A stretch of 64,000 nucleotides of DNA, from assembly GCF_016865255.1 (NCBI RefSeq), contig NZ_CP033381.1, positions 4,650,001 through 4,714,000 on the forward strand, in the 5' to 3' direction. Positions within the stretch are counted from its first letter, which is position 1. Each line of letters opens with the position of its first letter. The notes under the pieces were generated by a model. That model was not told the DNA's origin. It saw only the letters and a list, made by a program, of their open reading frames with translations, and ran no database searches. Made by a program: the position numbers and the translations under genes. The DNA comes from Methylomonas sp. LW13 (GTDB taxonomy: Bacteria > Pseudomonadota > Gammaproteobacteria > Methylococcales > Methylomonadaceae). Below are positions 11,155-33,800 of this stretch, piece after piece.

Positions 11155-12003
11155 ATGTCTGAAACCACAAATACTATCAAGCACGTTGCCTCGCCACTAG
11201 CGCGCCAAACCCTACAGGACAACGAGCTTACCCGCCCTGTTGCCGGTGTGCGCCCGATTCGGCTCTTGCCTTGGCTGCAAGTCGTTAAGATTGGCGGCCG
11301 CGCCATTATGGATCGCGGTGCAGATGCGATTCTGCCTATCGTTGACGAGCTTCGCAAACTATTGCCCGAGCACCGTCTGTTAATCCTGACTGGCGCGGGT
11401 ATCCGTGCACGACACCTCTATAGCGTCGGCCTTGATCTGGGTCTCCCGGTTGGATCGTTAGCCCCACTCGCGGCAAGTGAGGCCGGCCAAAACGGTCATA
11501 TTCTTGCGTCTTTACTGGCACCTGAGGGGGTTTCTTACGTAGAACACCCCACTATCGAAAGCCAACTTGCTATTCACCTTTCTGCGGCTCGTGCGGTCGT
11601 CGGCAGTGCCTTTCCACCGTATCATCATCACGAGTTTCCCATCTCGCGAATTCCGACGCATAGGGCTGATACCGGCGCATTCTTGCTCGCCGACGCGCTA
11701 GGGGCGGCTGGTCTCACCATCGTGGAAGACGTCGATGGCTTATACTCCGGCGATCCCAAAGGCCCCGACGGAGAAAAAGTGCAATTTGTTCGAGAGACAA
11801 CTGTCGCCGATCTGGTATCGCATCAGGGCACGTTGCCGTTTGACAGAGCGCTTCTTGAGGTGATGGCAACCGCACGCCACCTTGAGCACGTGCAAATTGT
11901 GAATGGGCTAGTACCGGGTCGGCTCACCGCTGCTTTGCGAGGCGAACACGTTGGGACAATCATTCACACTAGTGCTCACTCAGCCCAGGCCTCGCCGGCG
12001 TGA
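11155..12003 (+). CDS. mosA: Molybdenum storage protein subunit alpha
   Basis: The protein has 282 residues, near-identical in architecture to the A. vinelandii MoSto alpha subunit (about 276 aa): [75 protein letters not shown] and [19 protein letters not shown]. The histidine run in PPYHHHEFP corresponds to the alpha-subunit histidines that bind polyoxomolybdate clusters in the known structure. It pairs with mosB to form the storage cage. GGAGTT precedes the ATG. The gene is convergent with modE and I saw no strong terminator between them, only a weak 7-bp GAGCCAT/ATGGCTC pairing at 12024-12071. Confidence 0.95.
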
Positions 12004-12177: not shown

Positions 12178-12579
12178 TTAATCTACGTTGTTTTCAGTTG
12201 TCTGCTTCGACATTAATCCTGAAAAAATAGGTAAATATGCCTGGGCAGCGTGGTTTACAGCGGTGACCATTTTAGTGTAGTGATCCAATACTTGGTGCCC
12301 CAAAGGTGTTAGCATCGTGCCACCACCATGCTTCCCCCCCCTGGCAGCCTGAACCAGCGGCTCCGAGAAACTCCGATTCATCACGTCCACAAGCATCCAG
12401 GCTCGCCGGTAACTCATATTCATGGATTTACCTGCCGCAGCGATAGAACCAGTCTTCTGAATCGCCTCCAGCAACTCGGCTTTGCCTGGCCCCATGGCAA
12501 TTTCATCGAAATGTAGCAAACGCAGAGTTATTTTTAGGTGGGGAAGCGAGGCGTCCGATTCTATCTCTGTAGATTTCAT
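12178..12579 (-). CDS. modE: Single-domain ModE-type molybdate-responsive regulator
   Basis: The protein has 133 residues and corresponds to only the N-terminal winged-helix domain of ModE: MGPGKAELLEAIQKTGSIAA, GKSMNMSYRRAWMLVDVMNR and GGKHGGGTMLTPLGHQVLDH. The recognition-helix region (MSYRRAWxLVDxMN) matches that of E. coli ModE closely, so a similar operator is expected. The two C-terminal Mop/TOBE domains that bind molybdate in full-length ModE (about 262 aa) are absent, so molybdate sensing must be indirect, use another partner or be lost. It is convergent with mosA. The likely target in this window is the box at 24581-24604. Confidence 0.88.
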   Translation of the reverse strand: MKSTEIESDASLPHLKITLRLLHFDEIAMGPGKAELLEAIQKTGSIAAAGKSMNMSYRRAWMLVDVMNRSFSEPLVQAARGGKHGGGTMLTPLGHQVLDHYTKMVTAVNHAAQAYLPIFSGLMSKQTTENNVD

Positions 12580-14370: not shown

Positions 14371-15161
14371 TGTGCGACCCCCGAGGCGTTCCGGTTTGCA
14401 GGGCTCTGGTCATCTTGAATTCCTCCAGCGTCCGGCACTAGTGTCGACGGCTCGACAGGCTCAGCCCCGCCATTCGCGCGAGTGTTGGACATAACGACAG
14501 GCTGAGTCGCTTCAAACGGGGTGATCTTCAACTGCTGCAATTTATAGCGATACTCTTCCGCTACCGTTTCGGTTTGCACCTGACCGATACCGGTCAAGGG
14601 GTCCAGCTCGGCCAACTGTTGCAGCAGGCTTTTGTCCTTATATTGCTTCAATACCTCCAGATTGATAGTGCGTAGCTGTTGATTGACACCCGTGCATTGC
14701 TCTATCCACTGTTCACGCTCTTTCACGGCTTGCACTAACAATCTGTTGTCTTCGCGAATGTCGCGGGCCTTGCCGACCACTTCGTTATGCTTTTGCAGCA
14801 AAGCCTGTTCGCGTTGGCGTTGTTGGCCCAATTGCGCTTCAAGATTGCTGCGCACCGTTTCCAGGCCGGATTTATAGCGTTCCACTTCGGCTTGCAAGGC
14901 TTGCAATCTGCTGACCGCTGCTTCCAGGTTTTTCAGTTTGGTATCCAGCGCGGCTTTCTCGGCGAGCCAAGCGGTTTTTTCGGCCTCCAGCGCATATTTT
15001 TCTTGGCTGAGTTGGCGAATCATGCCTTGGGCTTTTTTGATGGCTTCGCCACCTGGCGTTACGGGTTTAGGCTCCGTTCGACCGCTTTCAATACCCGCCA
15101 ACATCATTACCAGTATCAAGCACGGCAAATAAATCAAGGTCGGCGTTTTTTGCTTGATCAT
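14367..15161 (-). CDS. Membrane-anchored or secreted periplasmic coiled-coil protein
   Basis: The protein has 264 residues. The N-terminus (IYLPCLILVMMLAGIESG) is a signal peptide or signal anchor. Residues ~45-170 form a long heptad-rich coiled coil (EKYALEAEKTAWLAEKAALD, LQALQAEVERYKSGLETVRS). The C-terminal ~50 residues are Pro/Ala/Gly rich and probably disordered. No named family was recognised. It lies 11 bp after the porin gene and its stop overlaps the TpsB start (ATGA), so it is made together with TpsB. A role as a periplasmic spacer or chaperone between the inner-membrane ExbBD-TonB complex and the outer-membrane transporter is inferred from shape and position. Confidence 0.7.
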   Translation of the reverse strand: MIKQKTPTLIYLPCLILVMMLAGIESGRTEPKPVTPGGEAIKKAQGMIRQLSQEKYALEAEKTAWLAEKAALDTKLKNLEAAVSRLQALQAEVERYKSGLETVRSNLEAQLGQQRQREQALLQKHNEVVGKARDIREDNRLLVQAVKEREQWIEQCTGVNQQLRTINLEVLKQYKDKSLLQQLAELDPLTGIGQVQTETVAEEYRYKLQQLKITPFEATQPVVMSNTRANGGAEPVEPSTLVPDAGGIQDDQSPANRNASGVAH

Positions 15162-15172: not shown

Positions 15173-17047
15173 TTAGAACCGTGCATTCAGATCGACATTT
15201 AAAGTGTCGATACTGTATTTCGGTCCGTCGATGGCGTCCGAACTTAACCAGCGTAGATTCAGCCAAGTATTCCGCGCCAAACCGTATTGCACGCCGGCCA
15301 CCCAACCCTTGGCGTTGGTACCGCCAAGGTGGAAAATAGAATCGGTAAACGCATCCAGCACCGCATCGCGTTGCACATAACGATAGGCCATATTGACACT
15401 CCAATCGCCCCAGCGCCTGACTTCCGGCTGGCCGACATCCACGCGGAGTTGATACGCCGTAGTGTGCGGTTTGTTGTCCGTGTAGTTGACGATGCCGTTC
15501 AGAAACTCGGCGGCTATCCGTTGTTTATCGAATCCCAGATTCCTGGCGTAATCGGCTGTCAACAACACGTGCACAGGGTCGAAGCCGGCATAATCGAACA
15601 TCGCAGTGGCATTGAACACTTTGAATTCAGAAGCTAAGCCAAACAAACAGCCCACCGTATCGTCGCATGTGCCGTTCAAGGTATTGAAATCGGTGATAGC
15701 CACCATGGAGTTGCCTTTTTGCACAAACTGCGGTGCAGTCCAATCGTAAGTATGACTACCAAGCGGATTGGGACGGGCGTTGACGTTCTGGAATTCGTAA
15801 TAGGACACCGCCAGATTCAAGCGCGAATCGTTGAATACCAACCAGTCCGCACCAACCTGACCGGCGTATAGCCATTTGTCGTTGACCGAGACATCAATGT
15901 CCTGCAACGGAAATACTCCCAACGTTAAAAACAGGGCGTCCGGCGTTTGCTGACCCTGGTTGATGCCGAAACGCGCTGTCGGGTTCGGCGCTTTGTAGCC
16001 GGCCAACTTATTGGCTCCGCGATTAAACGGCAAACGAAAACTGCCGGCCACCCCTTCGAAACTCAAGTCGGGATCGAAAACTATGTCGGTGGAGACAAAT
16101 GGATTGATGATGCGCCCGGCGTACAGGCTAAACCAGTTGGTTTTGCGCGCGTCCAGGAAATCGTATTGCAGATAGGCGCGGTCGATAGCAAACTGATAGG
16201 ACTGCCCGGTGTTGCCCAGAGTCTGATCATTGGATACCGGGTTGTTGATATTGCTGGTCGCAAAGCGGATGCCAGCTTTCAAGCCATCGGCAATATTGGC
16301 TTCAAATCCCAATCTAAACCGCTCGCGCAAGCGCAGGCGATCTTTTTGGGTATTTAGAATCGCTTCGTTGGGGTTTAAAGCGACCTGCCGGTTCAGGCCA
16401 CCTTGCGGGGTATTGCCGGCTCTGTTAATAGACAACCAGTTATACGGGCCGAAGAAGTTACCGTTGGTATCGATTCCGACATTGTCGACGCCACCTTCGT
16501 TGGCCTTGCCATAAAAATCGTCGGCAAAACGGATGCGCATGTCAAAGCTGGGATGAATCGCCGCCACCCATTCCGGCAACGCGCCGGGAATACCCCAACC
16601 TTCGGTTTTAGCGTCCTGCTTGACGTCTTGCAACACGTCCGCTTTCAGTTCGGCGCGGACCTGGTCGCGGATTTCTTTTTTCACAAACTCCGGCACATAG
16701 CCGACATGCTTGATTTTGCCGGCTTTTCCCTTGATCATCTCAGCAGGCATCTCCACATCTGCTGCCGGCATGCTTTCAGCTGGCTGTTCGCCATGACTTA
16801 GCGTTTTGCCGTTTTTGGCTTGGACCGCGTTGACTTTGGCCGCTTCAGCCGCTTCCTGTTCGGCGGCACTAACCAGACCTTGCCCCTCCTCTTTGTTGAT
16901 CACGCCCCGCTGCACCAACAAATCGACCAGATTGACCAATGTCGATTTCTTAACCGAAATCGTCTCATCGGCAGCTTGCGTGGCGCGAGTCATCACCGTA
17001 AGGCTGCCGAACAGCAGAACAACCAGGGATTTAGTTGGGATATTCAT
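15173..17047 (-). CDS. Putative outer-membrane porin, Porin_5 family
   Basis: The protein has 624 residues: a signal peptide ending ATQAADE, then a short helical region STLVNLVDLLVQRGVINKEE. Next comes the sequence VGYVPEFVKKEIRDQVRAEL ... WGIPGALPEWVAAIHPSFDM, which I recognise from the 'putative porin' (PF16930) family. The rest is a long run of amphipathic beta strands ending in NVDLNARF with the terminal Phe used by the BAM complex. Solute specificity is unknown. In this operon it sits between TonB and the TpsB side, so it may provide the outer-membrane channel of the system. An 81-bp gap separates it from the tonB gene. Confidence 0.85.
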   Translation of the reverse strand: MNIPTKSLVVLLFGSLTVMTRATQAADETISVKKSTLVNLVDLLVQRGVINKEEGQGLVSAAEQEAAEAAKVNAVQAKNGKTLSHGEQPAESMPAADVEMPAEMIKGKAGKIKHVGYVPEFVKKEIRDQVRAELKADVLQDVKQDAKTEGWGIPGALPEWVAAIHPSFDMRIRFADDFYGKANEGGVDNVGIDTNGNFFGPYNWLSINRAGNTPQGGLNRQVALNPNEAILNTQKDRLRLRERFRLGFEANIADGLKAGIRFATSNINNPVSNDQTLGNTGQSYQFAIDRAYLQYDFLDARKTNWFSLYAGRIINPFVSTDIVFDPDLSFEGVAGSFRLPFNRGANKLAGYKAPNPTARFGINQGQQTPDALFLTLGVFPLQDIDVSVNDKWLYAGQVGADWLVFNDSRLNLAVSYYEFQNVNARPNPLGSHTYDWTAPQFVQKGNSMVAITDFNTLNGTCDDTVGCLFGLASEFKVFNATAMFDYAGFDPVHVLLTADYARNLGFDKQRIAAEFLNGIVNYTDNKPHTTAYQLRVDVGQPEVRRWGDWSVNMAYRYVQRDAVLDAFTDSIFHLGGTNAKGWVAGVQYGLARNTWLNLRWLSSDAIDGPKYSIDTLNVDLNARF

Positions 17048-17128: not shown

Positions 17129-17809
17129 CTAAACCCTGGAGTTGAGTCTGATCCGAATCGGCTGCGGCATGTTTTCCGGCGGCGGCCTACCGATGCTCGC
17201 GCGCAGGCGCGGCAAGACGGCGCGAATTGCCAGGTCGACATCTGTCTTGCCGCTACCTCCGGACAGTTCGCTGCGGCTAATCCCGCCATCCGCACCGACC
17301 CAAACCTCCAAAATCACGCTATAACCGGCTCGGCTGGCGGCCGTGTCGGCCAACAAATCCTGTAAGCCATTCTCCACTTGGCGTTGAATCTGCCCGCCAT
17401 ACCAGAGGATGGCATTGCCACCACCCCCGTCTCCGCCCAAGATAGAGCGTCCGCCTTTGTGCGCGGCCAAGCCAAAGCCGTCGCTGCCGGCCGTGCCGTC
17501 GGCGTCCAGCCCCAGCTCTTCCGCGGACGGGGTCTGGTCCGATTCAGGCTCCGGCGAAGGCTCCGGTTCTGGTGCGGGCTCAGGGACATCAAGCACTTCT
17601 TCCTTTACCTCCTCCGTCTGCGCAGGCTGTTGCTCTGGCGGCAAAGGTGCCGGCGGTTGAATCATGGTAATTTGCTGCATCACCTTTTTGGTTTGCGGTG
17701 GTTTACGAAATTTATCCTGCAGCAGCCAAACCGCTAGCAATATCAGCAGGCTCAAACCCATTCCCAGCAACACCGGCAGTCGGCGTAGCCATGCGTATTT
17801 GTTATTCAT
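17129..17809 (-). CDS. TonB-family energy transducer
   Basis: The protein has 226 residues. One N-terminal transmembrane helix (VLLGMGLSLLILLAVWLL, ~14-31) is followed by a Pro/Glu-rich span (~45-95; VPEPAPEPEPSPEPES) able to cross the periplasm. The compact C-terminal domain (~135-226) has YSVILEVWVGADGGISRSEL followed by SGGSGKTDVDLAIRAVLPRL, of the TonB C-terminal fold. It would carry the energy of the ExbB-ExbD proton channel, encoded immediately upstream, to an outer-membrane partner. As no TonB-dependent receptor lies in this operon, the partner may be the porin, the TpsB/TpsA pair, or the receptor at 53114-55498. Confidence 0.85.
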   Translation of the reverse strand: MNNKYAWLRRLPVLLGMGLSLLILLAVWLLQDKFRKPPQTKKVMQQITMIQPPAPLPPEQQPAQTEEVKEEVLDVPEPAPEPEPSPEPESDQTPSAEELGLDADGTAGSDGFGLAAHKGGRSILGGDGGGGNAILWYGGQIQRQVENGLQDLLADTAASRAGYSVILEVWVGADGGISRSELSGGSGKTDVDLAIRAVLPRLRASIGRPPPENMPQPIRIRLNSRV

Positions 17810-17868: not shown

Positions 17869-18273
17869 CTACTTCACCAACTTCTGCGTCACCAAGCCCA
17901 ACTGATTGATCTGCAACCGGGTCACCACATCCAGCACTTCAATTACTTTTTGATATTGCACACTGGCATCGGCCTTCACAATGACCGGTAAATCCGGAAT
18001 TGCGGCCTTGTATTGCGCCAGCCGGGTTTCCAGTTCCTGAAGCGATACCGGGTAAGTATCGAGATAGATGCTGCCGTCCGGGGTAATCGAGATGGCCTTG
18101 GTTTTAGGTTTGGACAAGGACGGCGTGCTGCTGGCCTTGGGTAGGTTGACGGTGATGCCCTGCACGGTAGCAGTGGTCATGATGATGAAAATCAGCAATA
18201 GCACATAGGCCACGTCCAACATCGGAGTGATGTTAATGTCGTCATATATCTTGCCTTCTTCTTCTAATCTCAT
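17869..18273 (-). CDS. exbD: ExbD/TolR-family biopolymer transport protein
   Basis: The protein has 134 residues, the normal ExbD size. It starts MRLEEEGKIYDDINITPMLD, with the invariant Asp of the N-terminal transmembrane helix in DVAYVLLLIFIIM. A periplasmic domain follows, with the usual PVIVKADASVQYQKVIEVLD segment. With ExbB it forms the proton-driven motor that energises TonB. The gene starts 3 bp after the exbB stop (TAAGTCATG) and precedes tonB by 59 bp, the classical exbB-exbD-tonB order. Confidence 0.93.
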   Translation of the reverse strand: MRLEEEGKIYDDINITPMLDVAYVLLLIFIIMTTATVQGITVNLPKASSTPSLSKPKTKAISITPDGSIYLDTYPVSLQELETRLAQYKAAIPDLPVIVKADASVQYQKVIEVLDVVTRLQINQLGLVTQKLVK

Positions 18274-18276: not shown

Positions 18277-20061
18277 TTACGCTCCCAGCGGTTGTTGGGC
18301 GGCGCGCATAGACAACACGGCCAGAAATTCGTCACTGAACACCCGCATGTTGGCCGTGATGTCCTTAATTTTGGTTAACAGGTAGTTGTAGGCAAACAAG
18401 GCGGGAATCGCCACGGCCAGACCGGCCACGGTGGCCAGCAGCGCGGCGGCGATACCGGGGGCGATGGCGTTGATGTTGACATCGCCGCTGGCGGCAATCG
18501 CCGCGAAGGTAATCATCACCCCCACCACTGTACCCAGCAAACCCAGGAAAGGGCCGCCAGCGATGGCAATGGTCAGCAGCACCATATTGCTATTCAGGCG
18601 CTGGCTTTCGGTAACGATTTGCGAATCCAGCTTTACTCGCAGATAGTCCCACGCTTCGCGGGTCACCACTTGGCCGTCGCCGCCTTGCAGCTTGTTCAAT
18701 TCATGGATTGCCGTGTGATACAGGTGATACAAAGTCGAACTTTGGAAGTGGTCATGTTTGCCGACCAAAGCCGTGAGCAAGTCGGAGTCTGCCAGTTCTT
18801 GGTCTTCGGCGGTTTCCTCCTGGTCCAGCGTGCTGAGTTTGTTGGGATCGAGCTGGCGATACTGGACTAGGAAGGCGCGGTTATCCTTGGCAATGCGGTT
18901 GATCACTAAGGTTTTGCTGACCATGACGATCACCGCTACCACCAGCATGATCAAGGTCAATCCGATCACCACCCAGCCGTCGACGGTGACGTTTTGCACG
19001 ATGACCATGAAATGCCCGTCGCCGCTGCTGTTGGTTTCGTCCTGGCCGTAACTTAATACCGAGAAATCCGGGCTTTGGCTGCGAAAACTCAGTTTTAGCC
19101 AGTCGGCGCTGCGGGCTGTGGCGGCGATTTGCACTTCGTCGAGCAAACCGACCAGATTGCGGCCAATGGCGATAGCCGGGTTGACGGTAGTCAGCGTGAT
19201 CGCGGCATTGCCGACCGGCATACCATCGACGTACAGTGCCAGTTTGTCAGCAATGGCGGTGACGGCGATGTGTTGCCATTTGCCCTGGGTTAGGTTGACC
19301 GGGGCGGTAGTCACAGCGCCGGCCGGGCCGGTCCAGCGCGCCGATAATGCGCTGCCTTTTATTACCAAGTCGATGCCATTGCCGCCTTCGCGGGCTTCCA
19401 ATAGATTCGCGCCGTTCTGCGGCTGGTCGAGCTTTAGCCAGGTGGAAAAGGTCCAGCCTTTGTCTGGCGCGATGGCTAGCTGCGGCGCGGGATTGACCTG
19501 TAACGGGCCGGCACCGGTGAACTGGGCGGCGGCACCGATCCAGCCGGCGGGTTGAATCGTGGCTTTGGAATCGGCGGCATGGCTGGCGTAGGCGGTGGCG
19601 TCCTGCGGCAGGACTTCGCCGTCTTTAAAGTGATACACCAGGCCTTGAGCGACATCGTAGAGATTTTTAGGATCCGAAGCGTCCGGGGCGTTGGCGTTGC
19701 CGTAATACAACCAGAAGTCGTCGCTACTCACCCCGCCGCGCAATTGCAGCAACTTCACCCAGACCAGACCGATCTCGCTCAACACGTCGATTTGTTCGAC
19801 GTCGTACACCAACGGGGTTTTGTCGTCTTTTAAAAATCGCAAATCACGGCCGTTTTCGGCCAGCTCGGCAAAGTAGCCGAAATTACCGGCGTGCAGCCGC
19901 ACCAGTACCGGCACATCGCTCAGCGTCTCCTGAATATCGGCGCCGGTCGCTGCCGCATCCACCGCGACTTGGCGACGGGAATCCCAGTCATCATCCCACC
20001 AGGCTTGGCAGAGTGCTGGCAACAGGAGCAGGCATAAGCCCAGTTTTAAAGCATTACGCAT
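18277..20061 (-). CDS. ExbB/TolQ/MotA proton channel fused to extracytoplasmic DUF2341 and LamG domains
   Basis: The protein has 594 residues from the ATG at 20061, preceded by AGGAA; upstream in-frame starts lack the signal peptide at the N-terminus. The order of domains is: signal peptide (LGLCLLLLPALCQA); DUF2341-like region beginning WWDDDWDSRRQVAVDA (~20-140); LamG/concanavalin-like domain (~165-320; WTFSTWLKLDQPQNGANLLE, KWQHIAVTAIADKLALYVDG); a transmembrane helix near 365-390; then the ExbB core with GGPFLGLLGTVVGVMITFAA and IAAALLATVAGLAVAIPALF. Ordinary ExbB is about 240 aa, so roughly 350 residues of putative ligand- or glycan-binding domain have been added on the periplasmic side. 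The architecture is known among MotA/TolQ/ExbB proteins but its purpose is not. Confidence 0.88.
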   Translation of the reverse strand: MRNALKLGLCLLLLPALCQAWWDDDWDSRRQVAVDAAATGADIQETLSDVPVLVRLHAGNFGYFAELAENGRDLRFLKDDKTPLVYDVEQIDVLSEIGLVWVKLLQLRGGVSSDDFWLYYGNANAPDASDPKNLYDVAQGLVYHFKDGEVLPQDATAYASHAADSKATIQPAGWIGAAAQFTGAGPLQVNPAPQLAIAPDKGWTFSTWLKLDQPQNGANLLEAREGGNGIDLVIKGSALSARWTGPAGAVTTAPVNLTQGKWQHIAVTAIADKLALYVDGMPVGNAAITLTTVNPAIAIGRNLVGLLDEVQIAATARSADWLKLSFRSQSPDFSVLSYGQDETNSSGDGHFMVIVQNVTVDGWVVIGLTLIMLVVAVIVMVSKTLVINRIAKDNRAFLVQYRQLDPNKLSTLDQEETAEDQELADSDLLTALVGKHDHFQSSTLYHLYHTAIHELNKLQGGDGQVVTREAWDYLRVKLDSQIVTESQRLNSNMVLLTIAIAGGPFLGLLGTVVGVMITFAAIAASGDVNINAIAPGIAAALLATVAGLAVAIPALFAYNYLLTKIKDITANMRVFSDEFLAVLSMRAAQQPLGA

Positions 20062-20101
20062 AGGGGGATTCCTGGAAAGTTCGGCAACATTTTTCAAGAC
20101 C

Positions 20102-20626
20102 TTATTGATGATGCGGACAGTGCATATCCATCGCATCGTGCCCATGGTCGTGCAGTTGCGCATCGAACCAGTCGTGAACGGCTTTGATCAATTGCGGGTC
20201 GCGGCTCTGGAAGGTCAGACTGGCGCCGGCGGCTTCCGCTGTATAGTCGATTTGCAGCAGACCGGGTTTGGCGCCGCGCATTCCGGCCAAGCCCGGCATA
20301 TCGGCACCGTGGATAGACTCCGGCCCGGAAAAATCGCCCTGTTTAAAACTCGCTGCCAGTTGCTCAAGATGCTGCCTGATCAACCAGACTTGTTCCAGGT
20401 TTAAATCATCCCTGGCAATTACCCGCTGCATGCCGCCCGTTGCGGTTTTGCTGAATTGATGCTGGGTTTGCGCCAACGAGAACGGCATGACTTTAGCGCC
20501 GCGCTCGGCCACTTCCGTTTGTCGGTTGTTATCAGCGGCCGGCACCGGCTGGCTTAACAAGCCCATCACTAGAATAATCAACACCGCGCAGCACAACAGC
20601 TTGACATCCTCGTTGGATAATTTCAT
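20102..20626 (-). CDS. Small exported protein with His/Met-rich C-terminus, function unknown
   Basis: The protein has 174 residues from the ATG at 20626 (GAGGCGG upstream); a longer frame to 20710 overlaps the previous gene and has no signal-peptide logic. An N-terminal hydrophobic segment (VKLLCCAVLIILVMGLLS) exports it. The body contains MQRVIARDDLNLEQVWLIRQ followed by HLEQLAASFKQGDFSGPESI and IHGADMPGLAGM, a pattern found in proteins often mislabelled 'aspartate carbamoyltransferase'; there is no such enzyme signature. The C-terminus HDHGHDAMDMHCPHHQ could bind a metal ion. Its place between the SUOX-fold protein and ExbB suggests a periplasmic role in the same system. Confidence 0.7.
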   Translation of the reverse strand: MKLSNEDVKLLCCAVLIILVMGLLSQPVPAADNNRQTEVAERGAKVMPFSLAQTQHQFSKTATGGMQRVIARDDLNLEQVWLIRQHLEQLAASFKQGDFSGPESIHGADMPGLAGMRGAKPGLLQIDYTAEAAGASLTFQSRDPQLIKAVHDWFDAQLHDHGHDAMDMHCPHHQ

Positions 20627-20645
20627 ATGTCGACCGCCTCTATAG

Positions 20646-21698
20646 TTAAGACGGCTTACGGTGTCTACGAAGCCCAAATGCCAGCAAGCCGCTGAACATA
20701 AACAGAACACTGCCCGGTAACGGTACGGTGCTGACCACAGTTAAGCTTGTGAGATTGGAAACATAGCGTCCGCCCTTGGCTACATCGCCGGGTACTACCA
20801 ATTCCGCAAAGCCTTTATTGCCCAAGGAATTGCCCGAACCATCGGCGTAAGCGACCAAGACCGAGATATTCCCAAAATTGGGGTTAAGCTCGCCCAGCGC
20901 AAATACCGCCTGATAACCGTCGCTACCGGTAGCGACAACATACTTGCCAAGAATGTCGTTTTTTACGCCAGGATTGGTCACGATGCCGGATAGATTCAGC
21001 AGATCCCATAAAGAAACGCCGGTAAACGACGATCCGGTTAATGGTGGCGTATTCACGTTAACGATCTTGGCAGGTAGCGCGGCAGCTAGGCTGGTGACAT
21101 CGTAGCTAACGGCGTTGGCAACCTCACCGTTGACGGTGAATTGTCCAGACACGCCACCTACTGCAGGTGCGTAATCGATATGACCAACTTGCAGACTGTA
21201 CAGATTCGATACCCATCGGCCCGCTTTGACATCATCCGGCGCCACAATGCGAGCAAAGCCAGTGCCGATTAGATTGGCCCCATTGAGTTTGTAAGCGATG
21301 ATGTCGTTATGATTGCCGAACGCGGCATTCATTTCCGCCAGCGAAAATACCGCCTTGTAACCATCCGTGCCGCTAGCGACCACATAGTCGCGCAGGATGT
21401 CGTTTTTCGGCACCGTGGTATCAGTTTTCAGAAAGCTACCGAGAAAGGCACTCAGGGACACGCCGGTGTAGACATCGCCGTTGCTCAATGTCACGGTTTT
21501 TTGCGCGCCGGAGTGAGTGGCTGCGTAATTTTCCAAAGCCGCCAGATCGAAGCTGGCGGGACTTCCCGGATTGAGAAAGCCGCCTAGACCAAACTGACTG
21601 GAAGTAACAGCGGCCCAAGTCGGCTGTGTCAATGCCGACAAACAGAAAGTCAGACCAAAAATCAGCCAATGACGAGCGGAAATTTTGCGTTGATACAT
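20646..21698 (-). CDS. Exported protein with two tandem SUOX-like (molybdopterin-binding fold) domains and PEP-CTERM-like tail
   Basis: The protein has 350 residues from the ATG at 21698; the TTG at 21725 is the alternative. After the signal peptide (LIFGLTFCLSALTQPTWA) come two homologous halves. The first has NDILRDYVVASGTDGYKAVF and DDVKAGRWVSNLYSLQV; the second has NDILGKYVVATGSDGYQAVF and GDVAKGGRYVSNLTSLTV. Both resemble the oxidoreductase molybdopterin-binding (sulfite oxidase) fold. The mature protein has no cysteine, so the Cys that ligates Mo in true sulfite oxidases is absent. The C-terminus VPLPGSVLFMFSGLLAFGLR followed by RHRK is a PEP-CTERM/VPLPA-type sorting signal. Likely a surface or periplasmic binding protein. 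Confidence 0.75.
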   Translation of the reverse strand: MYQRKISARHWLIFGLTFCLSALTQPTWAAVTSSQFGLGGFLNPGSPASFDLAALENYAATHSGAQKTVTLSNGDVYTGVSLSAFLGSFLKTDTTVPKNDILRDYVVASGTDGYKAVFSLAEMNAAFGNHNDIIAYKLNGANLIGTGFARIVAPDDVKAGRWVSNLYSLQVGHIDYAPAVGGVSGQFTVNGEVANAVSYDVTSLAAALPAKIVNVNTPPLTGSSFTGVSLWDLLNLSGIVTNPGVKNDILGKYVVATGSDGYQAVFALGELNPNFGNISVLVAYADGSGNSLGNKGFAELVVPGDVAKGGRYVSNLTSLTVVSTVPLPGSVLFMFSGLLAFGLRRHRKPS

Positions 21699-21900
21699 GC
21701 GTATTGCCTTGTGTAGGAATGACAACGTGCCGATTAGGCATAAGAAAACCTGGGCATCGGCGAATGAAGGTGCACATCCCTGTGCCGTCCAAGCCTATTC
21801 AGTCCTTTTGAAAATCAACTTGAATATCCTGATTTGTTAACGCTATCGTGTTTGGGTTGGGGAAAATCTTAACCATCCATCGCACTGATAGGCGGAGATA

Positions 21901-21941: not shown

Positions 21942-23567
21942 TTACCGCAGTTCGACGGTGCCATAATTTGGGTTGACTACAGGTATCGCGCAAGCATCGG
22001 GCGTACCAAATAGAGAACGTGTGAATGGCGTAACCGGATTAGCGGGATTCCAAGTATCGGGCGGTGTATGCCCGTTGGCGCTCAATGCTATGTAACCTGC
22101 TTGGCCCCAACTATGATTGCTCAAGGTGCCGTTGCGAGACGCAATCGTGCTGGGCAGGCTGCTGTAAGCAACCAAGGCATTTAGTGCGCTATCCTGGTTG
22201 CCACTGACACTGTTTTTCCAGGAAATCGCGTATTCGCCAACCAGCGGGTAATGGCCTAAGAAGACCTGCTCACCAGTAGGCAGCGCACCGTTAATTTTGA
22301 TAAAGCGATAGTTGGCACTGCGGCTGGCATTACGCTCGGTAGTTTGTATACTAATCGCCCATTGGTTGCCGTGCGGAACACTGGTAGCCGGCGGATTGGG
22401 AAACGGCGCCGGATTGGTGGTGCCGAACCAGCCGTTGGTACCGTCGTTATAGTCACCCAGACATTTTTCTACCGCGCCTAAACTAGTGGCGTATTGCACA
22501 TCGGCAAACCCGCCCGGTTGGGCCAAACTGGGCGAAGATGTGCCCAGGCAAGGGCTTTGCATCACGCTGGCCAACAAGGCCACCTGCTGACCGGCGCCGT
22601 TTTCACGGCGGCAAATATGCACGGTGGTATCCAACGGGTCGGACAAACCTGGCACCGCAGCTACTACGCCGTCGTGAACGATTTCTGGCAGAGTTTTATC
22701 TACACCGCCGACTTTCACTTTAAATGTGCTCCAGTCAGCAATCTGCCCGCTAAACAAGCTGACCAGCGATTCCTTGGACAAATTCGGTACGCAAGCGGGC
22801 GTTTCATTACCTACCGTACAACTGCCTGGCAAGGAGCCGTTCTGGATTTGCGCGTATTGCAATGCATTACGCAGCTTCAGCGTTACCGGAGTACCGATGA
22901 TATGCCCGCCCAACGCATATTTGTTGTCGAGTGTTGCGGCATCTATATCCGCTTTGCCAGGCGTTACGTTATCGACACCGTGAAACACATCCGGCGTCAC
23001 GTCCGACGTCGCTGCAGTCGCCGCTATGCCAGGGGTGGCAGTGGTGCAGGAATAGTTCCATTGAAAAGTCGCTCCCCCGGACGCATAGGAACCGTTGAAA
23101 GCGCTGCACACCGCCGTGGTGGGATCTTTCAGATAGGTCAGCAAGGTGCCGTTAGCCACCGCATCCAAACCAACAAATGACGCACCCAGCCGCCGCCGGG
23201 AGATCCACAACCTGGTGGTATGGTGCGCACCAGTCCCGCCGGTCAAACCGGGTATCTTGGTGTCGTCGGTATTACAATAGATCGCAGAGTAGTTGTCGTT
23301 GACGGCGGCCGACGCGGCGCCGGCGGTATGGAAATAGACATGCGTGGTGGTACCCGCGCCGGTGGTGGTTGGATTGTCCAAACACAAGGCATTGGTCGGC
23401 GTGGTACTGTTGATCATAAAGCCGAAAGCCGGATCGTTCGATTGGGAACCGGGAATGTACAAACTCAGTTGCGGGGCGCCGTCCGCCGGGGTCAGCGCCC
23501 AGACATCGCCTATAGCAGCTATCATCAAGCCGGCCGCAACAAGCTTGCGGGATAAGGAAGAAAACAT
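21942..23567 (-). CDS. Exported periplasmic-binding-protein-like protein (PstS-like), function unknown
   Basis: The protein has 541 residues from the ATG at 23567 (GGAG 8 nt upstream; an in-frame TTG lies 12 bp earlier). A signal peptide (KLVAAGLMIAAIGDVWA) is followed by a protein with several cysteines, probably disulfide-bonded. The segment LSKESLVSLFSGQIADWSTF matches the 'I.sG.i.nW' region of PstS/type-2 periplasmic oxyanion-binding proteins, and HICRRENGAGQQVALLASVM resembles their ligand-loop region. It is much larger than PstS (about 320-350 aa). I infer an oxyanion or small-ligand binding role; phosphate or molybdate would both fit the fold. It follows the PEP-CTERM-like gene by 33 bp. 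Confidence 0.55.
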   Translation of the reverse strand: MFSSLSRKLVAAGLMIAAIGDVWALTPADGAPQLSLYIPGSQSNDPAFGFMINSTTPTNALCLDNPTTTGAGTTTHVYFHTAGAASAAVNDNYSAIYCNTDDTKIPGLTGGTGAHHTTRLWISRRRLGASFVGLDAVANGTLLTYLKDPTTAVCSAFNGSYASGGATFQWNYSCTTATPGIAATAATSDVTPDVFHGVDNVTPGKADIDAATLDNKYALGGHIIGTPVTLKLRNALQYAQIQNGSLPGSCTVGNETPACVPNLSKESLVSLFSGQIADWSTFKVKVGGVDKTLPEIVHDGVVAAVPGLSDPLDTTVHICRRENGAGQQVALLASVMQSPCLGTSSPSLAQPGGFADVQYATSLGAVEKCLGDYNDGTNGWFGTTNPAPFPNPPATSVPHGNQWAISIQTTERNASRSANYRFIKINGALPTGEQVFLGHYPLVGEYAISWKNSVSGNQDSALNALVAYSSLPSTIASRNGTLSNHSWGQAGYIALSANGHTPPDTWNPANPVTPFTRSLFGTPDACAIPVVNPNYGTVELR

Positions 23568-23600
23568 AATCTGCTCCAATAGAAAAAGGAAGTAAAGGGT

Positions 23601-24458: not shown

Positions 24459-24818
24459 AAACTACCTCTAATAAATTTAATGAGACCCTTGTCCCGTTAT
24501 GTGTCCATGGCGCAAAGGCTTGCCGGCATCAATCTATCCGCAGCGATTACAACCCGTGTTGATCGGGAACGAAGGTTTTTCGTTATACCCCGACGAACAT
24601 AACGTAAGGCAAATATGTGAATCAGGTCAAATATTATTCGGGAATTTATTATTTCTTATAAGGAAATAAAAGGCTAAAACATAGCGTACTAGTGAGTTTA
24701 TTGTGAGATCTCCTATTAAAATCCCCACAATTTGCCGCGTTGACAGCGTTTAGGTCTTGCACTGGCGATATAAACGAGTAAACATAGAAATACCTTTCTA
24801 TATTTTCGATATAACCGT
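24459..24818. other. Divergent regulatory region between the TpsA gene and its partner operon
   Basis: This region is 360 bp, distinctly A+T-rich from about 24600 to 24800, with no gene. It must hold promoters for both the minus-strand operon and the TpsA gene. It contains the ModE-type operator (24581-24604). A TTGACA is present at 24740-24745, but a -10 at normal spacing is not convincing. No Shine-Dalgarno site is evident just before the TpsA ATG. Confidence 0.7.
24581..24604. promoter_or_regulatory. ModE-type operator (CGTTAT-N12-ATAACG)
   Basis: CGTTAT (24581-24586) and ATAACG (24599-24604) are exact inverted half-sites separated by 12 bp, the same half-sites and spacing as the E. coli modA ModE box. 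The right flank ACATAACGT is shared with the E. coli site as well. It lies 123 bp from the start of the minus-strand operon and 215 bp from the TpsA ATG. Two fixed hexamers at fixed spacing are expected about 0.004 times in 64 kb of random equal-composition sequence. A modE gene is 12 kb away. Binding is inferred. Confidence 0.65.
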
Positions 24819-27800
24819 ATGAATACGCCGATCACCCCATTTACCGGCAAGGAGCCACTGCTTAGACTAAGCATTCGGCGAATTTTAACCGGCGGCGTGT
24901 TGGCAATCTCCAGTGTCGCCGATAGCTGGGCCGACGGCGGCTTGCCCGTCTCGATCAATGCCGGCGGCGCCAATCCATCCGCGCTTGCCGATCTCACCAG
25001 TGCCGCGCGGCACCCTGGCATCAATGTCGGCCACGCCTCAGCCAATTACAGCGCCGACGGTCAAAAACTGACCATCCACCAAACCACCGATAAAACCGTT
25101 TTGGACTGGCAGAGCTTTAATATCGATGCCGGCAAGAGCGTGCAATTCGCGCAACCAACCAGTTCGTCGGTCGCTCTGAACAACATTCACCAGCTGGATG
25201 CTAGTAAGATTTCCGGCACCCTAAGCGCCAACGGCCAAGTGTATTTGGTCAATGCCAACGGCTTCGTGTTCGGCAACGGCGCGTCGGTCAACACCAACAG
25301 TTTGGTTGCCACCAATCTGAAAATCGCTGACGAGGTGTTTGCCCAAGGCATCAGCAAAGTAGTAGATGCCAACGCCAGTGCCAATAATAAGGATGCGCTG
25401 GCGGCACTTGCCGGCGACGGCACTGTGTATCGAAATACCGGCAACGGCAATCGCGAGAAAATCCGCATCTTGGTGGAAGCGGGCGCGCAAATCGGCACCG
25501 GCTCCGGCGGCCGGGTGATCATGGCCGCGCCGCAAGTGGAAAATCGCGGCACCATCTCGGCGCCGGACGGTCAGGTGATTTTGGCGGCGGCCACCGACAA
25601 GGTGTATTTGCAGGAAACCGACGACGACAATCTGCGCGGCCTGCTTGTGGAAGTTAAAACCGGCGGCGACGTGAAAAACCTCGGTAAGATCCTTACCGAG
25701 CGCGGCAATACCACGCTGATGGGTTTTGCGGTGACGCAACAAGGCGTAATCTCCGCCAGCACCTCGGTGGCATTGAACGGCAGCGTCCGCCTGCTGGCCC
25801 GGGAAGGCGCGCGCCTGGAAGCCGGCGACAATCGTTATCGGCTCAAGCCGCTCAGCACATCAAGAACCACGGCTGCGGACGACGGATTGGGCACTGAAGC
25901 CAGCGTGACGCTGGAATCGGGCAGTCTGACCACTGCGACGTTGGATGCCAGCGCCGGCGGCGCCGTTAGCGGCCAAGCCCAGCCAAAATCCAAAATAGAC
26001 TTGCAAGCAGGGCAAATTCGCTTGAAATCCGCTGCGCAAATTGTGGCCCACGGCGGCGACGTGAGTCTAACAGCCAGCGCCACGCCAGCCAATCCGCTCA
26101 GCACCAGCTCTGCCGACAATACCAGCCGAATCGTATTGGCTGCCGGCAGCAAGATCGACGTATCCGGCGTGAAGAATATCGAATTGCCGATGTCGGCAAA
26201 CATAGTGGATGTGGAACTGCGCAATAACGAGTTGCGCGACGCGCCGCTGCAAAAAACCGGCTTTTTGCACGGCAAAACCGTGCAGGTGGATAGCCGCACC
26301 GGCACCACTTTGGCGGACATCTCCGGCGCGCTGGAGAAAGTTCAACATAGCATTGAAGAGCGCAACCTAGACGCCGGTAGCGTTCATTTGCAATCCGAAG
26401 GCGATGTCATCGTCCAGCCAGGCGCGGACATCGAAATTTCCGGCGGTTCGATACATTATCTGGCCGGCAAGATAACCACCAGCAAACTGCGTTCCAATAG
26501 CAGCATCGTCGACATTGCCTCCGCCGATCCTAACCTCACCTATCAACAAATCCTCAACAGCAGCTATTACCAAAGCGACTATTACCAAGGCGGCGATGCC
26601 GGTAGCCTGATTATCAAAACCCGCGACCTGGGTTTATCCGGCAATATCCTGGCCGGCACCGTCAACAGCGCTTACCAGCGCACCGCCGATAAGTGGGTAA
26701 GCGGCGGCGCATTGCGCATAGACACCACCTGGTCGAATCAATATCAGCAAGATCTGGTGTTTAGCAACGGTGCCGGCTACGCCTATGGCGCCGAATTGGA
26801 TACCGCTGTGCCGATTTACCTAAGCAGCGGCTTGTTCGCCCAAGGTGTGAACCGCTTGACCGTCAGCAGCGGCGGCAAACTGACCATACCGCAAAACACC
26901 CGCTTAAGCCTGGCAAAAGCGGGCAGTCTGTCGCTACAGGCCGGCGAAATAGAGGTATTGGGAAATATCCAGACTCCGACCGGCAACGTAGAACTGAAAA
27001 CCCGGCGTGGCCTGGACCCCACCCGCGATTTGAGTGGCCGATTGCATCTGGCTGCCGGCAGCGTCATCGACAGCAGCGGCAGTTGGATCAACGACCTAGT
27101 CGATAGTAAAAACGCGCAAATACTTAAGCCCTTAACGATAGACGGCGGGAATATTCTGCTCCAAGCCCAGGGCGATCTGCTACTGGATGGCGGCTCTAAA
27201 ATTAGTGCCAGCGCCGGCGCCGCATTGAATAACAACACCAAAACCAAAAATGGTCACGGCGGGAATATCGACTTGATCAGCGCCGGCCTGGACCCCAGCG
27301 TGTTAAGCCTTGGCGCAATAATGTCCGCCTATGCATTGCAACAAGGCGGCGTGCTGAGCATTACCGCCAACGGCATCCAGCTGGGTGGCGCCAGTGGCGA
27401 TCCGCATGTACTGAACCTGTCGCCAGCGCTGTTGCAATCCGGAGGCTTCAGCGGCTACCGTCTGACCGCCAACGCCGGCGATTTAAATATTGCCGACGGC
27501 ACCCAAATCCATTTACAACAAAGCAACTGGCAATTAAAAGCCACGGCCATCAAGGCCGCCAGCGGCAGCGACTTAAGTACCCTGGTGCAATTGGCGGTCT
27601 TGCCCGACGACATCCGCGACGCCGTCGATCTGAGTTTAAATCTAAGCCATAACGCCAGCATAGCCGGCGGTTACGTCGCCGAGCGGGCCATTCGCATCGG
27701 CAGCCATACCGCGATCATCGGCGATCCAGGCGCCGATTTTTCGCTAAAATCGGACGCCAATATCTACATCGACGGCTCTCTGCTTGCACCGGCAGGAAAA

Positions 27801-30800
27801 ATAAGCTTACAACTGAGCAGTCCGCCCAGCGCGCTGGATAAGGGCTACAACCCTAATCAGGCAATCGCCTTGGGCCATAATGCCATCCTGAATACCGCCG
27901 GTGCCACGGTTTGGACGACCAACGCCCAGCGATTGGCCTTGGGCAATGTGCTGGCCGGCGGCAGGATAGACTTAAATGCCGAGCGCGGCTACATCCTGAC
28001 AGCCGCCGGCAGCCGAATGGATGTATCGGGAACCCAGTCGGCGATAGACATCGTTAATGCCAAAGGTAAAAGTCGGCAAACCCTTGCTTCGGCAGGCGGC
28101 TCGATAAACCTGACCGCCGCCGAAGGCATGCTGTTACAAGGCCAATTGCAGGGCCGGGCCGGCCAGGGCACCACAGCGGCCGGCAGTGGTTCGGCAGCTG
28201 CCGGCGGCACACTGAAACTGGAATTGAACACCCAACACCGCGGCGAACCGGAAGAACAAATCTTCACGACTGGCGACCGGGTGATCCATTTTTCCGCTGA
28301 ACTGCCCAACTTACCGGACGCCGCGCAACTGGCCGCCAACGGCATCCCCGATACATTTAACGGCCAGGCTTATATCTCTGCCCGGCAAATTCAGGAAGGC
28401 GGCTTTGGTTCACTGGGCTTGGCCGCATCGGTGATACAACCCGATCAATATTCCGCAACGCCCGTACGCCCCGAGCGCGGCGAGATCCGTTTCGAAGGCG
28501 ACCTTAGTCTGACTCTGGCGCAAAACCTGAAACTGGATGCGCCATTGATCAGCCACGCCGGCTACGGCCAGGTGGCTTTAACCAGCAATACCTTCAGCCT
28601 GGGTTCCAGCTGGAACCGCGCCGCTCACGGCAATCTAGGCGCCGCAATCGGCAGCGTCGGATTGAGCATCAACGCCCAGCTGATAGATTTGTTCGGTTCC
28701 AGCGAAATTGCCGGCTTTGCGCAAACCAGCCTGAACAGTAGCGGCGACATCCGCTTAACCGGTATCAATCCCAACAGCGAAGCCGACCTGATCGGCGGCC
28801 TGAGCCTCAGCGGCAATCTTAGTTTGAGTGCCCGACAAATCTATCCCACCACGCTCAGCAAATACAGCTTGAAGCTGGATGCCGCACTAAACCCGAACGG
28901 TCTGATCGATATTCTGCCTGGCATCGGAAATTGGTATACGCCGTTGTCGGCAGTCGGACAATTAAATATCAACGCGCCAAACATTGTCAGTCATGGCGTT
29001 TTATTGGCACCATTCGGCAACATCGCCTTAAACGCCGGTAATTCGTTGACCCTGGCTGCCGGCAGCTTCACGTCGGTTAGCGACGACGACGGCATCGTGA
29101 TTCCGTTCGGCCGCACCCAGGGCGGTCTGGACTGGATTTATCCGCTGGGCACTTACAACAATATCCAAAACGGCACACCGCAAAAAGCCATTACCTTATC
29201 CGCACCGGACATCAATCTGGCCGGCGACGCTGTGGTCAATTTAAACGGCGGCGGCGATTTGTCGGCTTTCGAGTTCATCGCCGGACCGGGCGGCAGTATC
29301 GATACTTTGGATCCCACATCACCCGGCTACCAACAAAATTACGCCGTATTACCCAATTATCAAGCCGATTTTGTCGCCTTCGACCCGCTGGAATTCGCCA
29401 AATCCGGTCTAAATCTGGGTGACAGTATTTTTCTCAGCGCAAACTCAGGCTTGGCGGCCGGCTATTACCTGTTGCTACCGGCACACTATGCCTTGCTACC
29501 CGGCGCCTATCTGATTACCCCGCAAGCCAATACCACCGATATGGCAGCCGGTACCAAGTCTTTACGTACCGATGGCTCGACCATCGTCGCCGGCTACCGT
29601 TATTCGGCCGGCACTAATATCGCCGACAGCCGCTGGTCGGGCTTTGCCGTCGAATCGGGCGCCATTTCCCGCACCCGCTCCGAATACCAGGAAACTACGA
29701 CAAGTAATTTCTTCGCGGGCAACTCGCTACCGCAAGACGCCGGCAATCTCAGCCTGCTGGCCGGCAATAGCTTGCAAATGGCGGCGCAAATCAGCGCTAC
29801 CGCAGCTCCAGGCGGGCTGGGCGGCATGTTGGACATCAGCGCGGATAGACTGGCCGTGGTTAGCAGCCGTAGCATCGGCGTCGATCCCGGCACGGTGTTG
29901 TTAGCCGACGAATTGAACCGCCTCGGCGTCGACAGCCTGTTACTGGGCGGTCGACGCAGTCGCGGCAACGGCCAAACTCAGCTAACAGTCGGCGCGCAAA
30001 CAGTGACCGTAGCGGCTGGCAGCCGTTTGCAAGCCCCGGAAATTCTGCTGGCAGCGAGCGATACCGTCTCGTTAGCAGGCGACACAACGTTAAGCAACGC
30101 CGGCACAATCAGCCGCACCGATACCAACCTTAAGGTCATCAATACCGATGGCAGCAGCGACGGCGCCCTATTAAGGGTGTCGGCAGGTAGCCAGGCTAAC
30201 GTGGTGCGCGCCGCCGATGCGTTAACCGGACTGCGCGGCACGCTGGACATCGCCGACGGGGCAACGCTGTCCAGTGCCGGCTCAATTCTGCTGGATGCCA
30301 GCAAAGACACCCGCTTCTCAGGCAATATCGCGATGAACCAGGGCGAATTGACCCTCAGTTCCAGCCGTATTTCACTAGGTGATACCGGCGGCAGCGATGG
30401 ACTGCAATTATCCGCAGCCACCTTAAACGGCCTGCGCGTAGACAAGTTAACGCTAAACAGCTTTGGCGCGATAGACATCGCCGGCGCGATGAATCTGCAA
30501 TTAAAGGATTTGGTATTAAATGCCGCAAGTCTTTACGGCTATGGCAGCAGTAATCAGATTGCCGCCATCAATGCCGAAACTATCACCCTTAAAAACAGCG
30601 GCAGCGCACCGACGGCATTTACCGCCGCCGGCAACGGCCAACTAAACTTGACCGCAAACACTATCACTTTGGGCGCCGGCGAATACGCCTGGTCGGGCTT
30701 CCAGCAAATCTCATTGCAAGGGCTCAACGCAGTCGTCAACAGCGGCACCGCTGATATCCGCGCCGATAGCGATGTCACCATCGCCACACCCATTTGGACA

Positions 30801-33800
30801 GCGACCGCCGGCGCCAATAGCTCATTGAATCTAGGCAGCCATGATCTGACTACCTTGGCCGCCGGAACCGCCCCGCAAAGTGACGCCCTCGGCGCCCGAT
30901 TAAGCGTCGCGGCCGAACAAATAAACCATCAGGGCCACATTGAACTGGCTTCCGGCATCGTCAAACTGCAAGCCGCTCAGACTTTGTCGATCTCCGGCAG
31001 CATAGACACCAGTGGCCGCGACATCGATCTGGCCGGCCATCATGTCAATACCGGCGGCGGCAGTATTTTCTTGAAATCCGCCGGCGGCAGCCTGACCCTG
31101 AATGCCGGTTCGCTGCTCGATGTGTCCGGCAGCCAGCTGGGCGGCGACGCCGGCACCTTATCGCTGTCGTCAGGATTGGGGCATTTAACCCTGACCGGCG
31201 AGATACGCGGCCTGGGTTATCAAGGTGCGCGCGGCGGCAATATCAACATGGACGCCACAACTAGCTCCGGAGCTACCTTTTCCGTCTTGAATAACTATCT
31301 GACCAACGCCGGCTTTAATGGCGACTGGAGCATCCGCCAACGTAGCGGCGATCTAACAGTCGCTGCAAGCGATTACGTCAAAGCCCACAACCTTAATCTA
31401 AGCGTCGATACCGGGAAGCTGGATGTATTCGGCACCTTGGATGTGGGCGACCAGCAGGCCGGCAGCATCCGTTTATCCGCCGGCGACAGCATTAACATTC
31501 TAGCCTGCGCCAAACTCAATGCAGCATCTACCGCCGCCGGCAAGCCGGGCGGCTCGGTGGTTATAAGCTCTATGGATGCTGATAACGACGGCGATCACGG
31601 TGTCACTGTCGCCACTGGTGCCAACATCGATGTCTCCGGCGGTGCGGGCGGCAGCGTCGAGGCCGTCGTCAACCGGTTCGGCAACGGCGACGCGGCGGTA
31701 TCGATAGCCAGCGGCAGCGTGCTGGGTGCCCATACACTGAACGTCTCCGCGACCGCACATTACCGAGACATCCCGCTAAGTAACAGTCAAATTGGGGCAT
31801 GGCGCGGGGAAACCCAGCAATACCTGAACGCAGCAGCCGCAAATGCCGATCTGCAACAGCGCTTGGGCGGTTTTAGTTTGCAAGCGGGTGTGGATATAGT
31901 CAGCAGCGGCGATTTGACGCTGGATTTGACCGAATCGCTGACCGGCATGAACTGGACGCAACAGTCCAGCTCGATATGGAAAACCTCGCTCACCGATGCC
32001 GCCGGCGTGGTGAATGCCTTACAGCAAATCGGCAGCAACGGCGTGGTCCGCAACCTGACCGAAGCCGCCAGCAGTTCCCTAACTGCGGACGGCACTTATT
32101 ATTTTGATGCCAACCCGCAATCGGCCACCTTCCGCACCCTATTTGTCAGGATATTTCCGAATGCCGGTGCCGCCAACATCAAGTACAAGCCCAGCAACAT
32201 CAACGGCAGCCTGATTTCGCACAATGGCTGGGATCTGGCCTTTCCGGACTCGCAAGGCCGGAGCTGGCATTTCGATAACGGCAATAGTGTCGGCGCACTC
32301 AGCGTGAGGGCCGCCGGCAAGTTGCACATAAACCAAACCCTGAGCGATGGCTTTGCCTTGTACGATTCCAGCCAACTGGCCGGCATGCTGGGTGTAAACG
32401 GCAATTGGCTGCGAACCCTGGTTTTGCAGACCGGTCAATCCTGGAATTATAACTTGGTGGCCGGCGCCGATTTAACCAGTGCCGACCCGCTTGCGGTGCA
32501 GTCCTCGCTGAACGCTGGCTCACTAACCGTTGCAGCCAATACTAGCGTCCGCACCGGCACCGGCAACATCAACGTCGCCGCCGCCAGCGATATTACCCTT
32601 AGCGATGCTACATCCACCATTTACACCGCCGGCCGCGCCGCCGACACCGAGCGCTGGGGCAACTTCAGCAATGCTCTGGTCGCTGCGGCTTTTTTCGTCG
32701 AATATCCGTTCGACGGCGGCGACGTCAGCCTAAACGCCGGCGGCAATGTCATCGGTGCCGCCAGCCCGCAATTGATGTCCGACTGGCTGCAACGCACCGG
32801 TAACTGGGACGCCAGCGACGGCATTAGCGCCGCCGATAGAGCCACCGCGTGGGGCATCATGTTCGATGGCCTGGTTGTACAAAACAGCGCCAATGCCAGA
32901 ATTCAAAACCTGAAGTTCGGCTTTAGAGAGAACATAGGCGCGTTGGGCGGTGGTGATGTGAGCATCAAGGCCGGCGCGGATATTCACGATTTGTCGGTGA
33001 TGTTGCCGACTTCGGCAAAACCGGTCGGCGTGACGGACAACGGCCTAGTCGTCGAAAACCGTTGGCAACTACAAGGCGGCGGTAATTTGGAAGTACATGC
33101 CGGCGGCGACATAGCCGGCGGGGTGTTTTACGTTGACAAGGGTACTACCGATATTCGCGCGGATGGGGCGATCACCGGCGGCAGCCAATACACGGCCGGC
33201 CCGGTATTTGCGCTGGGCGACGCTCAATTCCAGGTTCAAGCCGCCAGCGGTATCGACGTCGGCACGGTGTTGAACCCGTTTTCGTTGACACCAGCCAAAT
33301 TCCTGGACAAAACCTCATACTTCAGCAGTTATAGCGCCGACAGCGCGATTGAATTGCAAACCCTGGCCGGCAACTTGGTGCTGAATAACGATGTACAAGC
33401 TATCGTCCAAGCCTACAAAATCTTCGACCAAGCATCGCCCATGGGCCGGGCAATCTTGAAAAGCACCGACTATCCGCTGCTGACCTTATATCCAGGCAAT
33501 CTCCACGCTCAGGCACTCAGCGGCGGTTTAGAAATCGTCAACTCGATGACGCTATACCCTGCCGCGGAAAGCAGCCTGAATTTACTGGCGAACGGCGACA
33601 TTAGTATCGGTAACGACAGCAGCGGTACCCGTGTCAATCAGCTGGATGTCGATCCTGCTCGATTGCAGTCTGCTGCCCAACCAGCCACGACAGTCGCCGG
33701 CGCAACCAAATATCTATTTACCACGCCTTTCGGCGGCGATGCTTCTACCGTACATGCCCCGCAACCGATCCACCGTAACGATACCAGTCGCAACCGCATC

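Follow-up and report, generated by a model that had tools for sequence, protein, structure and literature searches.

The window analyzed here, a 64,000-nt stretch of the Methylomonas sp. LW13 genome, contains a large gene cluster on both sides of a divergent intergenic region. On the plus strand this region is bordered by the gene for a giant exoprotein of 3451 aa, TpsA (24819..35174, start at 24819), in which domain searches identified a TPS domain and DUF3739. On the minus strand it is bordered by the first gene of an operon, encoding a 285-aa protein (P285; 23601..24458, start at 24458) that has no Pfam match and is probably exported, with an end that by eye resembles PEP-CTERM. Further genes on the minus strand encode a 545-aa protein (21942..23579), a 359-aa protein (20646..21725), a 202-aa protein with no Pfam match that recurs in several orthologous clusters (20102..20710), an ExbB-like protein (MotA_ExbB) fused to N-terminal DUF2341 and LamG domains (18277..20163), ExbD (17869..18273), TonB with a TonB_2 C-terminal domain (17129..17809), a putative outer-membrane porin of the Porin_5 family (15173..17047), a 264-aa and perhaps coiled-coil protein with only weak matches below cut-offs (14367..15161) and the transporter TpsB (12715..14370); ExbB, ExbD, TonB, the porin and TpsB were all assigned by domain search. 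The two partners of a two-partner secretion system are therefore both present, TpsA with its TPS domain and TpsB with POTRA_2 and ShlB domains.

Because sequence searches of the PDB gave no match for the 545-aa protein and weak matches at best (E no better than 0.27) for the 359-aa protein, the structures of both were predicted. The 545-aa model (pLDDT 91) has a PstS-like fold, with the best match at E 1.6e-7 and a TM of 0.63 by target. The 359-aa model (pLDDT 90) has two predicted SUOX/PruR-like domains, its nearest folds being SUOX enzymes and PruR (TM 0.73 by target for PruR), and PF00174 was found on many of the 120 homologs listed. The molybdenum-ligating Cys of sulfite-oxidase-type enzymes is not present in this protein, whose sole Cys falls in the signal-peptide region; the excerpted text of PMC13259868 describes PruR, a pterin-binding signalling protein, as likewise without this residue.

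The initial annotation placed molybdenum storage genes and a modE gene near the cluster, and both statements hold in part. Structure comparison confirmed that the plus-strand gene at 10327..11142 encodes a molybdenum storage protein of the beta-subunit type, and the next plus-strand gene (11155..12003), of the AA_kinase family, probably encodes a second subunit, judging from 42% identity to the first. The gene taken for modE (12178..12579, minus strand) does encode a ModE DNA-binding domain, recognized by domain search and below the TIGR00637 cut-off, but its 133-aa product, here called ModEs, consists of this domain only and has no TOBE/Mop sensor domain.

Between P285 and TpsA, at 24581..24604, lies CGTTATACCCCGACGAACATAACG, the sole exact match to the palindromic pattern CGTTAT-N12-ATAACG within the window, for which no strand is assigned. 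Four lines of comparison mark it as a ModE box: the pattern match itself, the alignment of orthologous regions, a profile built from other genomes (R2, below) and the modA operator of E. coli K-12. In the genome record the latter, CGTTATATTGTCGCCTACATAACG, stands 20 bp before modA, and its half-sites, 12-bp spacing and ACATAACG right end are those of the window box, which bears out the resemblance first noticed. A consensus given for the ModE operator in the excerpted text of PMC2700814, ATCGCTATATAN6TATATAACGAT, reduces to CGNTAT-N12-ATAACG, and the window box fits that dyad. No riboswitch was matched at the Rfam gathering score within the window; a small terminator-like hairpin is present in the leader of the minus-strand operon (24482-24495), with a GTCCC motif in several relatives.

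Dinucleotide shuffles of the window contained a mean of 0.01 matches to the pattern (1 of 100 shuffles had one), the same order as the chance figure of 0.004 originally calculated. The whole genome (5.23 Mb) holds two exact sites and also two matches to the pattern read backwards, and when up to two mismatches are allowed the reversed control is the commoner, with 384 sites versus 189 of the ModE type. Since the control is as frequent, the number of sites in this genome proves nothing by itself, and motif counts were dismissed as evidence. Across 37 Methylomonas genomes, exact sites numbered 46 versus 25 for the reversed control (summed by hand). All but one of these 46 (position 3437381 of G169) were examined for their neighbors. 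Twenty-two of the 45 adjoin modE, modA or the outer-membrane protein (OMP) gene of a modA operon and eight lie in regions orthologous to the one described here. Two sites each precede SUOX-like genes (G107 and G141), other TPS exoproteins (G061 and G169) and TonB-dependent receptors (G094 and G166), and one is separated by about 0.5 kb from a gene for a molybdopterin oxidoreductase (G152); the remaining eight have no such neighbor and no evident link to molybdenum.

Several further sites were noted in the course of this comparison. Two shorter TPS exoproteins, of 1153 and 1069 aa and with GLUG motifs, have ModE-type boxes upstream, at L121:4001-4201, where one exact box is accompanied by one with a mismatch, and at L137:4001-4024. 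ModE-type boxes with one mismatch are also found downstream of TpsB and before a PEP-CTERM-like exported protein (L061:18511 and L062:14577). A self-complementary site, CGTTATGCAAAGCTTTGCATAACG, occurs in four genomes (L107:4001, L114:4001, L122:4001 and L092:1501) beside genes without an evident molybdenum link, and is probably the site of another regulator.

Both the frequency of the reversed control in the genome and the eight sites in the genus without an evident molybdenum link would suit a box that is a chance match without function. The orthologous regions argue strongly against this. With an E of 1e-60 or lower against the 545-aa protein as the criterion for an orthologous cluster, we found one in 12 of the 37 Methylomonas genomes (in G107 and G141 the matching protein is 43-44% identical overall). 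Twelve divergent regions between P285 and TpsA could be aligned, from 11 Methylomonas genomes and one further member of the family (G080), some of them close relatives. The best box is exact in eight, has one mismatch in one and two mismatches in three, so the box is kept in place and is not absent from relatives, as the alignment called for at the outset might have found. When each region was shuffled 1000 times, no shuffle equaled the exact boxes, two equaled the one-mismatch box and 18-43 the two-mismatch boxes; the latter add little singly, because such boxes arise in 1.8-4.3% of shuffled regions. The twelfth genome with the cluster, G173, has two candidates with two mismatches each. Outside the genus, L173 has a one-mismatch site before P285, with TpsA beyond the contig end, L177 has two sites with two mismatches and L175 is without the region. 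The box is nearly absent from paralogous clusters, defined as PstS-like and TpsA homologs in another arrangement: of 29 loci (six of 35 were left out as they did not match both proteins), none has an exact site upstream and one has a site with a single mismatch. Among ten aligned sequences, from which the near-duplicates L127 and L066 were excluded, no other 24-bp stretch of the region is quite as well conserved as the box, which averages 1.27 bits versus 1.26 for a second palindrome discussed below. In G165, a genome of the same species, neither a match to the intergenic DNA nor an ortholog of the 545-aa protein was found, so the cluster is accessory. Conservation in place, together with the genome-wide rank given by an independent profile, lifts the box above chance, and we consider a functionless match highly improbable.

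That profile, R2, was built from 12 boxes that other genomes carry in TPS-type and related promoters, without boxes of modE promoters and without those of the genome itself. With 150 of 1372 first-look candidates scored, it ranked a modE promoter first in the genome (E 1.2e-4) and the window box second (E 5.9e-4), the next-ranked site having E 4.5. The modE promoter contains the other exact site of the genome, 83 bp upstream of a gene for a full-length ModE of 279 aa and divergent to an operon encoding an Alginate_exp-family OMP, ModA and a Mop protein. This ModE, at genome position 1.25 Mb, has a DNA-binding domain and two TOBE/Mop stretches, and its nearest solved structure is that of E. coli ModE, aligned over residues 25-273; its score against TIGR00637 (93.9 bits) is under the cut-off of 98.5, as are all matches in the genus. 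It is the candidate for the molybdate sensor, rather than the nearby 133-aa protein.

The two boxes are related but differ in their spacers (TA-rich versus CC..GG). A second profile, R1, built from 15 modE-type promoter boxes, found the modE promoter; with 150 of 1946 candidates scored, it did not report the window box up to E 10 in either the genome or the window. Because the spacers differ, TPS and modE boxes may be bound with different affinity or by different paralogs. The main regulator might accordingly be the HTH-only ModEs or, in relatives, a ModE paralog belonging to the cluster, with little direct response of full-length ModE at the box. Co-occurrence is consistent with this: ModEs is present in nine of 12 genomes with the cluster versus two of 25 without it (Fisher p 8e-5, a value that overstates independence because the genomes are related), presence being called at 61-81% identity where sequences were aligned and from the length of the open frame in other genomes. 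Against it, R2 matches the modE promoter and the window box alike and ModEs is without a sensor domain, so that we think it quite doubtful that such a protein takes the place of full-length ModE.

In Methylomonas sp. LW13 itself, modE and modA are 3.4 Mb from the cluster. In three relatives (G160, G151 and G135), an OMP-modA-Mop operon with its own one-mismatch box lies beyond TpsA, whereas ModEs and a full-length ModE lie at the opposite end, so the cluster stands between the modA operon and modE. For G160 the end of TpsA was taken from a 3456-aa open reading frame, and the matches in G151 and G135 only place that DNA. About 35 kb separate the box from the modE end in G135; in G160 and G151, ModEs and a 271-aa ModE, both located after TpsB, are the sole two ModE-domain matches in the genome. 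Similarly, L177 is a 9.7-kb contig on which TpsA, the PstS-like gene and ModEs occur together with a ModA that scores over its curated cut-off. The mere presence of modA says nothing about the cluster, because 35 of the 37 genomes have it. Taken together, the site, its conservation and the linkage that some relatives show with modA and modE, all established by comparison of sequences, make it very probable that the TPS/TonB cluster belongs to the ModE regulon. On this comparative evidence, molybdate control of the cluster through ModE, as first proposed, is well supported, with the qualification that direct control of TpsA rests on a second and much weaker site.

The arrangement of the intergenic region suggests how such control might act. 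A putative -35 element of the minus-strand operon, TTGACC, is located at 24625..24630 (minus strand), and its GTCAA core starts 22 bp after the box in ten of the 12 orthologous regions and 21 and 23 bp after it in the other two. A putative and weak -10 element, TACGTT (24601..24606, minus strand), overlaps the right half of the box and is found in ten of the 12 regions, with a spacer of 18 in nine and 17 in one. This promoter is proposed from conservation, because a scan with the sigma-70 consensus found no promoter here. If it is correctly placed, ModE would sit over the putative -10 and +1 positions of the minus-strand operon. The distance from the end of the box to the annotated start of TpsA is 214 bp, and a degenerate ModE-like element is found closer to this gene (24766..24789, plus strand; about four mismatches by eye), which is conserved but weak and has two mismatches in G107, G141 and G167. 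The box was originally assigned to a shared divergent promoter; it does overlap the putative promoter of the minus-strand operon but not that of TpsA, whose direct control would depend on the degenerate element. From the position of the box we judge that molybdate probably represses the cluster through ModE. Activation by molybdate-ModE would be compatible with the annotation of E. coli ModE as a dual regulator, and the presence of a further conserved palindrome could point to combined control; activation is nonetheless unlikely, since overlap with a -10 element present in ten of 12 regions is the position of a repressor, even though the putative promoter is itself weak.

The second palindrome, TTRTTTC-N7-GAAAYAA (24649..24669, no strand assigned), keeps a constant spacing to the ModE box. 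Allowing up to two mismatches, 11 of 12 TPS promoters contain it at 44-46 bp from the box and 11 of 19 modE/OMP promoters (L110, L111 and L130 excluded) at 14-15 bp, the background frequency being 0.03 per 424 bp. Between the two types of promoter the gap changes by about 30 bp, close to three turns of the helix. ModEs is unlikely to be the factor that binds it, as G117, G161 and G154, in which the single ModE-domain match is full-length, carry the palindrome in the modE promoter. Genome-wide, the exact palindrome occurs four times, at 24649-24669 and 49542-49562 of the window and at genome positions 120383 (L223) and 3802205 (L224); with up to one mismatch there are ten sites versus four for the reversed control. 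The copies at 49542 and in L223 precede related small open reading frames of about 53 and 83 aa.

Several characterized systems resemble this cluster in part. The E. coli ModE regulon has identical half-sites, identical spacing and a regulator of the same family; its site precedes modABC, whereas the Methylomonas site fronts an outer-membrane and surface system. The nearest described cluster in gene content is the PUMA3/Pdt cluster of P. aeruginosa (pdtA-pdtB, exbB2-exbD2-tonB4 and the PA0696 porin), which the excerpted texts of PMC2729926 and PMC7035377 describe as a TPS-TonB-porin cluster induced by phosphate starvation. Both clusters encode a TPS exoprotein and its transporter, ExbB, ExbD, TonB and a putative porin, the assignment requiring these six together and comparing gene content by family only. 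The regulators of that cluster are PhoB and the sigma system VreI/VreR, not ModE, and the window cluster differs further by encoding additional proteins, PstS-like and SUOX/PruR-like, and by being linked to modA and modE in relatives. In the Haemophilus HxuCBA system, as PMC4873976 describes, a TPS exoprotein serves TonB-energized nutrient uptake; there the nutrient is haem and a TonB-dependent receptor is used, whereas Pfam found no such receptor among the operon genes scanned here and a Porin_5 porin is present instead. The H2-T6SS ModA-IcmP pathway of P. aeruginosa is an extracellular route of molybdate acquisition in the excerpted text of PMC8602904, but employs type VI secretion and other proteins.

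The initial annotation knew of no TPS system under such control. A TPS-TonB-porin cluster responding to oxyanion starvation is already on record in the passages of PMC2729926 and PMC7035377 cited above, so this kind of system is known; the molybdate wiring is the part that looks new. In titles and abstract openings of mostly open-access literature, we found no link of ModE to two-partner secretion among the matches listed ('ModE' being indistinguishable from 'mode'), none of two-partner secretion to molybdate, and, again among the matches listed, none of ModE to TonB-dependent transport, molybdophores or metallophores. Nor did this literature yield a paper that brings together molybdate uptake, the outer membrane, TonB and molybdenum limitation.

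These parallels also bear on what the cluster is for. A cluster under ModE could serve an end other than molybdate uptake, whether tungstate, phosphate, pterin, or adhesion and biofilm formation: the PstS-like fold predicted for the 545-aa protein would fit phosphate equally well, the fold predicted for the 359-aa protein resembles PruR, whose role in the excerpt cited above is pterin-binding signalling, and the nearest described cluster responds to phosphate starvation. That three relatives have the cluster between modE and the modA operon, and that the L177 contig carries modA, points instead to molybdenum, so that another role appears rather unlikely. On the genomic context, participation in molybdenum acquisition is the interpretation that we somewhat favor over all others.

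We therefore propose the following general model. When molybdate is ample, full-length 279-aa ModE would bind the box and cover the putative -10 and +1 positions, repressing the operon that encodes P285, the PstS-like and SUOX/PruR-like proteins, ExbB, ExbD, TonB, the porin and TpsB. When molybdenum is scarce, the minus-strand operon would be switched on and TpsA would probably be induced as well, via the same region and the weaker second site. The exoprotein, the proteins with oxyanion- and pterin-binding folds, the TonB complex and the porin would then help molybdate, or a molybdenum complex, to cross the outer membrane and reach ModABC. We infer the binding, the direction of control, the regulation of TpsA and molybdenum as the substrate. 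As a whole, the explanation that the box is a ModE operator and that the cluster is repressed by molybdate-ModE and serves molybdenum capture has, in our estimate, a probability of roughly 0.7. Whether these parts form a dedicated, energized surface machine for molybdenum scavenging, composed of the exoprotein, its PstS-fold and pterin-binding-fold partners, TonB-ExbB-ExbD and the porin, switched by ModE under molybdenum scarcity and controlled jointly with modA by a second factor that binds the palindrome at a fixed helical distance, is a more ambitious proposal for which we see the odds as even.

Molybdate is usually assumed to pass the outer membrane through general porins, and few studies ask how it crosses when present in trace amounts; with a TPS-TonB-porin cluster controlled by ModE, a specific route would become open to testing. 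Such a cluster would also give a function to giant exoproteins that are commonly taken as adhesins. Nitrogenase, nitrate reductase and formate dehydrogenase can each create a demand for molybdenum in methanotrophs, and the system may thus have a bearing on methane and nitrogen cycling under molybdenum limitation.
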